In this document: piece by piece, positions 15,545 to 21,414 of the stretch | Layout: the number at the start of each line of letters is the position of its first letter | How positions within the stretch are numbered: the first letter of the stretch is position 1 | From: Acidimicrobiia bacterium | Lineage (GTDB): Bacteria; Actinomycetota; Acidimicrobiia; Acidimicrobiales; Bin134 | Direction: 5' to 3' | Assembly: GCA_022821445.1 (NCBI GenBank) | Contig: JAJEDQ010000190.1 | Coordinates: 1-37,004, forward strand | Length of the DNA stretch: 37,004 bases | Program-made: the position numbers and the translations under genes | The notes under the pieces: model-generated | What the model saw: only the letters and a program-made list of their open reading frames with translations | What the model was told of the DNA's origin: nothing | Databases searched by the model: none

Positions 15545-15568
15545 AGAGTGCCCGGGAGAGTGCCCGGG
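15545..15568. repeat. 12-bp tandem duplication at the 3' end of tRNA-Leu
   Basis: AGAGTGCCCGGG occurs twice back to back (15545-15556, 15557-15568). The second copy contains the tRNA discriminator base and acceptor 3' strand (15561-15568); the first lies just downstream of the tRNA. Confidence 0.85.
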
Positions 15569-15644
15569 GAGGGAGTCGAACCCTCACTCCCTTGCGGGAA
15601 CCGGATTTTGAGTCCGGCGCGTCTACCAATTCCACCACCCGGGC
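15561..15644 (-). tRNA. tRNA-Leu (anticodon CAA)
   Basis: 84 nt on the minus strand without encoded CCA. Acceptor GCCCGGG pairs with CCCGGGC followed by discriminator A. The anticodon arm is CCGGA-CTCAAAA-TCCGG, giving CAA; a long variable arm (TTCCCGCAAGGGA region) marks a class II tRNA; the T arm is GAGGG-TTCGACT-CCCTC. Reads TTG codons. It lies between the permease and the divergent fab operon. Confidence 0.95.
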
Positions 15645-20212: not shown

Positions 20213-20635
20213 TCAGTCGGCGTCTACCACCACGAACAGCAGCTCGCAGGAGCAGGCCAGATCGCCGCCAACCGACGCCCGCCCCTGGCCTCGGCCGGCC
20301 CGGGCCGACAGGCGGGTCATCTCCACTTCCAGGTCCAAGCGCTCACCGGGGACCACCTGGCGGCGGAAACGGGCGCTGTCGAGGCCGCCGAACAGAGGCA
20401 GCTTGCCGGCGAATCGGTCGTCGCAGAGGGCGATGTAGGCCCCGAGTTGGGCGATGGCCTCGGCCATCAGCACTCCCGGCAGCGTGGGACGCCTGGGAAA
20501 GTGGCCGGCGAAGAACGGCTCGTCGCCAGTGAGCTGCCAATAGCCCTCGGCCCGCTCCCCGATCACCATTGAGGTGACCTCGTCCAAGAACAGGAACGGG
20601 GGGCGGTGCGGGAGAACCTCAGCCGGAGGTCTCAT
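20213..20635 (-). CDS. fabZ: 3-hydroxyacyl-ACP dehydratase FabZ family
   Basis: Hot-dog fold dehydratase that removes water from 3-hydroxyacyl-ACP. 140 aa. [13 protein letters not shown] (about residues 8-20) and the catalytic helix [22 protein letters not shown], with His44 and Glu58-like positions, identify the family. It lies convergent to the fab operon that otherwise lacks a dehydratase, so it probably completes that pathway. It starts 18 nt after the peroxiredoxin stop on the same strand and is likely co-transcribed with it. MaoC-type dehydratases are unlikely because the FabZ helix is intact. Confidence 0.9.
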
Positions 20636-20653: not shown

Positions 20654-21118
20654 CTATTCCTCAGGCAGTGCCGCAGCCAGGTTGATCGCGGTGTTCTTGG
20701 GGCTGATCTTGTACCAGGCGCGCTCAATCCGGCCGTCTTCATCTACAAGGAAGGCGGAGCGGACAATGCCCCAGTAGGTGTTCCCGTACATCTTCTTCTC
20801 CCGCCACACCCCGAAGGCCTCGGCAGCCTCATGGTCGGGATCCGAGAGGAGGGAGTAGCCGAGGTCGCACTTCTCATCGAATCGCTTCTGGCGGTCGGGC
20901 TTGTCCCCGCTGATTCCCACTGCGGAGATGCCCCGTTCTGCGGCGATGTCACGCACGCCGATTGCCTGATTCGTTCAACCGGGAGTGAGCGCTTTGGGAA
21001 AGAAGAAAATCGCCAGCTTCCGTCCGGCAAAGTCACCCAGCGACACCTGATTGCCGTTCTGGTCCTCCAGGGCGAACGCCGGCGCTTGATCGCCGGGAGA
21101 CAACAGCCAATCATCCAT
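20654..21118 (-). CDS. bcp: Bcp/PrxQ peroxiredoxin, probable selenoprotein with in-frame TGA at the peroxidatic site
   Basis: Thiol-dependent peroxidase of the bacterioferritin-comigratory-protein family. Reading from ATG 21118 to TAG gives 154 codons in one frame, the normal family length, interrupted only by TGA at 20977-20975. That codon is residue 48, in FFFPKALTPG-[48]-TNQA, where the family has the peroxidatic Cys of TPGCT. The usual resolving Cys five residues later is absent (Ile53); Cys84 lies 36 residues on, a position used as resolving Cys in some PrxQ enzymes. Downstream sequence stays conserved (GISGDKP, LLSDPDHEAAEAFGVW, RSAFLVDEDGRI), arguing against decay. A TAGAGT box lies 6 nt before the ATG. 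A TGC/TGT to TGA error or mutation remains possible. fabZ follows 18 nt later. Confidence 0.8.
20941..20960 (-). promoter_or_regulatory. Putative bacterial SECIS hairpin
   Basis: Fourteen nt after the TGA the mRNA can form CGGCG-UG-[CGUGA]-CA-U-CGCCG: a 5-bp stem, one bulged U, 2 more pairs and a 5-nt loop with GU at its second and third positions. Distance from UGA to loop (about 22 nt) and a G near the loop start agree with the known bacterial SECIS pattern for SelB binding. Short GC hairpins are common here, so this alone is weak support. Confidence 0.5.
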
Positions 21119-21135: not shown

Positions 21136-21414
21136 TCAGGTTCCCTTGACGGCTGCCTTCAGCCGGGCCCCAGCGCTCACCTTGCAGCCCTTGGCGGCGG
21201 CAATCTGGATGGTCTCGCCAGTGCGGGGGTTGCGACCGGTGCGAGCGCCTCGAGATGTCTGCTCGAAGGACACGAAGCCGGTGATCGATACCTTGTCGCC
21301 CAAGATCACCTGCTCAGTGACGACAGTCTCCAGGCTGCTGAGCACCGCGTCCACGGAACTCTTGCTCTCACCGGTGCGCTCGCTGATGGCGCTGACCAAC
21401 TCTGACTTGTTCAT
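21136..21414 (-). CDS. hup: DNA-binding protein HU
   Basis: Nucleoid-associated histone-like protein. 92 aa with the HU/IHF core MNKSELVSAISERTG, GFVSFEQTSRGARTGRNPRTGE (flexible DNA-binding arm) and the C-terminal KAAVKG. The lysine-rich tail found in mycobacterial and streptomycete HupB/HupS is missing, so it is the short form. ATG 21414 has a perfect AGGAGG (21420-21425) 5 nt upstream. Upstream is a strong candidate promoter overlapped by a 24-bp inverted repeat. Confidence 0.96.
   Translation of the reverse strand: MNKSELVSAISERTGESKSSVDAVLSSLETVVTEQVILGDKVSITGFVSFEQTSRGARTGRNPRTGETIQIAAAKGCKVSAGARLKAAVKGT

Follow-up and report, generated by a model that had tools for sequence, protein, structure and literature searches.

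Judging from its genome sequence, a marine actinobacterium of the class Acidimicrobiia appears to place selenium at the active site of a peroxide-destroying enzyme. The enzyme is a full-length peroxiredoxin, and its codon 48, an in-frame UGA, very probably encodes selenocysteine (Sec). This reading is supported by the Sec machinery of the genome, a conserved TGA, a SECIS-type hairpin and purifying selection downstream of the codon. The window, i.e., the whole stretch of 37,004 nucleotides that was analysed, is contig C64 of a 3.41-Mb draft genome in 256 contigs, 92.7% complete. Related records in GTDB are Acidimicrobiia metagenome-assembled genomes (MAGs), including Candidatus Poriferisocius and Sva0996 bin134, and the bin134 contig also carries a TGA form of the gene (L080).

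The peroxiredoxin gene and its in-frame UGA

Features of the locus are collected in Table 1. The hallmark of Bcp/PrxQ proteins is the motif P-x3-T-x2-C/U together with a conserved downstream Arg. In the window gene, the sequence around codon 48 reads FFFPKALTPG-U-T, and P41, T45, G47, residue 48 and R120 are invariant in 30 aligned rows. With Cys substituted for Sec, the window protein matches Pfam AhpC-TSA (4e-30) and the NCBIfam Bcp model PRK09437.1 (154.9 bits, cut-off 140), which bears out the full-length Bcp/PrxQ proposed in the initial annotation. Among solved structures, 5enu, an AhpC/TSA family entry, matches best, and the next seven distinct sequences bear the name bacterioferritin comigratory protein. 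The start at ATG 21118 on the minus strand, the frame running unbroken to TAG at 20654 and the single TGA at codon 48 (20975-20977), where the family has its peroxidatic Cys, all stand as first described.

Table 1. Position of the predicted selenoprotein gene, its recoding elements and its immediate neighbours in the window.
Feature	Position	Strand	Remarks
Predicted Sec-containing Bcp/PrxQ peroxiredoxin gene	20654..21118	(-)	154 residues, ATG to TAG
In-frame TGA, codon 48, very probably read as Sec, in P-x3-T-x2-U	20975..20977	(-)	TGA in 20/20 genus orthologues
Putative bacterial SECIS hairpin within the coding region	20941..20960	(-)	loop CGUGA at 20949-20953
HU DNA-binding protein, just upstream	21136..21414	(-)	TGA stop; neighbour in 13/14 genus loci
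FabZ/FabA-like dehydratase, just downstream	20213..20635	(-)	TGA stop; neighbour in 14/14 genus loci

Orthologues with 60-99% identity are present in 20 of the 22 genomes of the genus; in G005 and G006, the genus search found only weaker relatives of the window protein. The comparison of this codon among relatives, proposed in the initial annotation, returned TGA in every one of the 20 orthologues, including those of the single-contig genomes G020 and G021, while TGC or TGT occupies the aligned position in all 16 Cys forms examined from the order. Among the 20 genus orthologues, the part upstream of the TGA has a median dN/dS of 0.154 and the part downstream 0.184 (from 181 and 173 of 190 pairs, respectively, in which dS exceeds 0.1). 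Decay of the downstream part, named at the outset as a possible sign against the Sec reading, was therefore not seen; this part is under purifying selection.

As the same TGA is found in all 20 orthologues from 20 of 22 genomes, chance or a sequencing error is excluded as its source. A misread or misassembled TGC or TGT could be suspected on a draft MAG contig such as this one, but as 20 genus genomes and 10 more from elsewhere in the order have an identical codon, its probability is negligible. Another explanation would be a decayed or truncated gene, in which UGA truly terminates translation after 47 residues. The use of TGA as an ordinary stop by neighbouring genes, which was claimed initially and holds for trpA and trpB as well as for HU and FabZ, would agree with it. 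However, a TGA fixed throughout the genus, a frame intact to its end, a dN/dS of about 0.18 downstream, and the invariance of active-site and downstream residues make truncation very improbable. The same usage of TGA speaks against UGA being read as Trp or Cys, either by general reassignment or by plain read-through. Since the adjoining HU and FabZ genes end in TGA, recoding must be local, and six f56 orthologues, which hold UGA both internally and as the terminal codon of the same gene, indicate that it depends on local context. Apart from the open frame, nothing points to such a non-Sec reading, and as the affected position is that of the catalytic Cys and the Sec machinery is complete, we regard it as highly unlikely. 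Gene calls that take UGA as a stop would truncate this enzyme.

Of 248 genomes sampled from the order, 202 gave a match with E <= 1e-20. The matches listed, down to about 5e-36, contain TGA forms from 18 of the 248 genomes, distributed as eight in the genus, two in f51, seven in f56 and one in G254 (f30). A tRNA-Sec is present in 17 of the 18 genomes with a TGA form among the matches listed, compared with 129 of the 230 others (one-sided Fisher p 7e-4, with relatedness ignored). These 129 genomes, holding tRNA-Sec and no TGA form among the matches listed, illustrate that the Sec trait does not imply this protein. The initial annotation considered such a protein noteworthy in this kind of actinobacterium. 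This stands insofar as no report from Acidimicrobiia was found; on the other hand, the gene is not a lone oddity, as Sec forms are carried by at least nine further genomes of the order (f51 and f56) and, in a separate branch, by G254. A class-wide overview search also revealed, in another order of the class, a 47%-identical relative with one TGA inside the match (G308:C45:116762-117220).

Selenocysteine machinery and the putative SECIS hairpin

All four components that the initial annotation had proposed to look for, selA, selB, selD and tRNA-Sec, are present in the genome. The tRNA-Sec, with anticodon UCA, scores 68.3 bits (cut-off 47), and selA (397.5 bits, cut-off 267.9) adjoins selB (301.2 bits, cut-off 242.25) on contig C243. 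A second tRNA-Sec match, on C78, was rejected as a second gene and looks like an assembly duplicate, because C78:1-309 is 97.4% identical to the end of C243, which it overlaps, and both have flanks matching the lone tRNA-Sec locus of the single-contig genome G021. The selD gene (G000:C91:27404-28348; 353.5 bits) itself contains one in-frame TGA. The selD sequences of four relatives (L127-L130) were read, and there the TGA lies in GAGUAGK, presumably encoding the catalytic residue, with a hairpin further down that has GGU in the loop region.

Across the genus, scores over the cut-off were obtained for selD in 22 of 22 genomes, for selB in 21 and for tRNA-Sec in 17; the five genomes with no tRNA-Sec over the cut-off are all drafts. 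In G014, which has the TGA form together with selB and selD, the tRNA-Sec search gave no match. The sole tRNA found in the window, tRNA-Leu(CAA) at 15560-15644 (-), is also weakly matched by the tRNA-Sec model (42.6 bits, under the cut-off). According to the available part of PMC5649159, most of the sponge symbiont bins, which come from various phyla, have both SelA and SelB; Acidimicrobiales bin134 is among the bins tabulated, and the majority is stated for the bins collectively, not for bin134 itself.

The putative hairpin spans nucleotides 18 to 37, counted from the U of UGA, with the five-nucleotide loop CGUGA placed 21 nt past UGA and an energy of -7.9 kcal/mol (24 nt, loop kept open). 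As given in the accessible text of PMC13188914, bacterial SECIS elements have a loop of 3-9 nt with G in the first two positions, a stem of 4-16 bp and a spacing of 16-37 nt, and the window hairpin lies within these limits for loop, stem and spacing. Within the order, the six pairs below the loop are complete in 29 of 30 Sec forms versus none of 16 Cys forms, if for every row, Sec or Cys, the more favourable of two registers is taken (one of them with a single bulged base). The 30 Sec forms comprise 22 distinct rows, in which 126 of 132 cells are base-paired, compared with 30 to 85 of 132 when the pattern is slid along the alignment; in the 16 Cys forms, 63 of 96 are paired. The stem is kept through other bases in L027, L028, L123 and L124.

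Codon choice in the loop is also restricted. The loop codons, at +8 and +9 from UGA, are Arg CGT and then GAC in all 20 genus orthologues and in all 10 Sec forms of the order outside the genus, whereas of the 16 Cys forms, 15 have a different Arg codon and one a Ser codon at the aligned position, and their loop is never CGUGA. Of the 334 Arg codons elsewhere in these genes, 24 are CGT. Beyond the order, CGT was also seen at the loop position in one Cys form, L093, and seven Sec forms of Desulfobacterales have CGG there. Mean pS is 0.142 over codons +4 to +12, whereas nine-codon windows have a median of 0.434; the two such windows in which synonymous change is least within the gene start at +6 and +4. 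The ten lowest windows further include those at +85 to +88, without an evident reason.

As 10% of random synonymous recodings of the window gene are at least as stable with the loop open, hairpin energy alone is weak evidence, and an unconstrained fold of 48 nt of the window sequence gave a different minimum structure. With the loop open, mean z is -1.43 in the genus, -1.26 in the other Sec forms of the order and -0.14 in Cys forms, with -0.92 in Desulfobacterales; Sec and Cys forms thus differ in mean z, but single genes do not always follow, L121 and L087 showing the opposite. In the fixed register, 94% of cells are paired versus 25-64% when slid (16 of the 22 distinct rows, taken without L013, L022, L107, L110, L111, L113 and L122), and double changes in these 16 hand-picked rows showed no excess over shuffles (72 of 500).

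As regards Sec insertion, peroxidase activity, the reductant and the reaction route, we infer the following scheme. SelB, bound to the in-frame hairpin just past UGA48, would bring Sec-tRNA(UCA), made via SelA and SelD, to the ribosome, and translation would then run on to TAG. Sec48 would act as the peroxidatic residue, its selenolate attacking the peroxide to give a selenenic acid.

Resolving cysteine and the probable reaction route

The initial annotation noticed that the resolving Cys at +5 is missing from the window protein, which has Ile, and this turned out to be a trait of the whole genus, where the residue is Ile in 15 proteins, Asn in two, Val in two, Lys in one and Cys in none of the 20. 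A +5 Cys is present in 15 of 16 Cys forms, in 10 of 10 Sec forms outside the genus and in none of seven Desulfobacterales, so that only this genus is devoid of it among the Sec forms seen in the order. The Cys-type orthologue L097 (G077:C2), with both HU and FabZ as neighbours, also has Ile at +5.

It was further suggested that Cys84, 36 residues past Sec48, lies at a position used by some PrxQ enzymes. The residue is indeed there, but its alignment and conservation do not follow the suggestion. In solved Bcp proteins (5iiz and relatives, presumably of Xanthomonas origin), the Cys at +36, which we take to be the helix-3 resolving Cys, aligns with Asp81 of the window protein, because those proteins have three more residues in between. 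Moreover, Cys at +36 or +37 occurs in 14 of the 20 genus proteins; among the remaining six, five have no Cys at all and one has Cys at +23. With neither a +5 Cys nor a Cys at the aligned helix-3 place, the protein does not classify as an atypical 2-Cys peroxiredoxin.

Sec forms of the other families of the order, which keep the +5 Cys, would form a Sec-Cys bond. In the genus, where this Cys is absent, the selenenic acid would more probably be reduced directly by an external thiol (1-Sec type). The alternative is a Sec48-Cys84 bond as in PrxQ of the helix-3 type, for which it can be said that Cys84 lies 36 residues on, just three residues off the aligned place, and is present in 14 of 20 orthologues. 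Against this bond, Cys84 is missing in the other six, the Cys at +36 of solved Bcp proteins faces Asp81, and the Sec forms of Desulfobacterales have no other Cys in seven of seven cases. The absence of Cys84 from a part of the genus and its offset from the aligned place favour a one-selenol cycle, and we consider the 1-Sec route alone to be the somewhat likelier solution and the Sec48-Cys84 bond rather unlikely; Cys84 could still serve as a facultative partner where it is present, in 14 of the 20 species.

Three stages are thus found in one order, partly with the same neighbours: Cys with a resolving Cys, Sec with a resolving Cys, and Sec without it. It may be, and we propose this only tentatively, that the resolving Cys became dispensable once Sec was acquired and a peroxiredoxin with two thiols became a one-selenol enzyme; the same course would have been taken independently in Desulfobacterales. 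The notion of a resolving Cys made dispensable by Sec is weakened by the tree being unrooted and by the Cys form L097, which is also without the +5 Cys. Tree and neighbours together provide a natural series for addressing why and how Cys was exchanged for Sec and what became of the resolving Cys.

Locus history and relation to known selenoproteins

In the single genus locus lacking HU, the contig starts inside the gene. The 10 Sec forms outside the genus have FabZ as a neighbour in nine cases, G254 being the exception, and HU in none, four of the ten stretches being short. A fabF-like gene lies past FabZ, and is also found in the six non-genus Sec loci that have longer flanks. The 16 Cys-type Bcp/PrxQ loci taken from the order, encoding proteins 59-64% identical to the window protein, have both HU and FabZ in four cases, only HU in five, only FabZ in one and neither in six. 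A plasmid search returned 22 records, and the five best listed were HU matches.

In an unrooted tree of 55 proteins, built with the catalytic residue masked, three Sec/Cys changes are required. The Sec forms of f1, f51 and f56 group in one clade (support 94/84); of the other two Sec placements, G254 falls inside the Cys forms and Desulfobacterales are separate. The FabZ side is common to the Sec forms of three families and to five Cys forms; for this part of the tree, this speaks for an exchange of Cys and Sec in situ over import of the gene. The isolated Sec form in the Cys branch (L124, G254:C201) has the same CGUGA loop, and neither HU nor FabZ was found in the short stretch examined; it possibly represents a separate Cys/Sec exchange.

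Selenoprotein peroxiredoxins were stated in the initial annotation to be known from other bacteria, and the literature agrees. In the parts available, PMC9312934 and PMC1088965 list peroxiredoxins with TxxU, COG1225 (Bcp), as a bacterial selenoprotein family, which also appears in PMC13188914, PMC1794560 and PMC5029168; 43 such genes are given for the Sargasso Sea in PMC1088965, and 91 proteins from 78 organisms in PMC5029168. The window protein belongs to this family as far as described there, sharing T-x-x-U with UGA at the peroxidatic Cys, and the genus form differs in having no +5 resolving Cys. No description of an Acidimicrobiia selenoprotein was found in the full-text literature searched, which was that available without subscription; the one paper in it that came up for Acidimicrobiia together with selenocysteine was PMC5649159. 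The window gene is accordingly a selenoprotein gene of a described family in a lineage for which no report was found, and adds a clear selenoprotein to Acidimicrobiia. Newer are the neighbours common to Sec and some Cys forms and the genus-wide absence of the +5 Cys.

Two other groups of Sec-peroxiredoxins can be compared. The Desulfobacterales forms (L084, L085, L087-L089, L091 and L092) carry Sec at the same place and a hairpin in six of seven cases, weak (-1.5 kcal/mol) in three, but differ in their separate tree branch, the loop CGGGA and the motif TSGUA. PrxU of Eubacterium acidaminophilum is reportedly a studied bacterial Sec-peroxiredoxin; the NCBIfam model peroxi_PrxU, which we take to represent it, gave the window protein 20.9 bits against a cut-off of 270.

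Further candidates were observed in the same genome. A second peroxiredoxin (L119, G000:C15:5482-5892), with one in-frame TGA in the motif TKGUT, is of a type 34-38% identical to the first and has the TGA in 17 of 22 genus genomes. In the eight copies examined, it has no Cys and a stable hairpin (mean z -3.27, loop open) in another register, with a longer loop beginning CGUGA and the loop codons CGT-GAT in all eight. Finally, a longer open reading frame (L120, G000:C213:2731-3012, and L029), of 388 aa in the window's own genome, has the motif WUGC, one in-frame TGA in the match and a redoxin domain (tested on L029), and is probably another selenoprotein.
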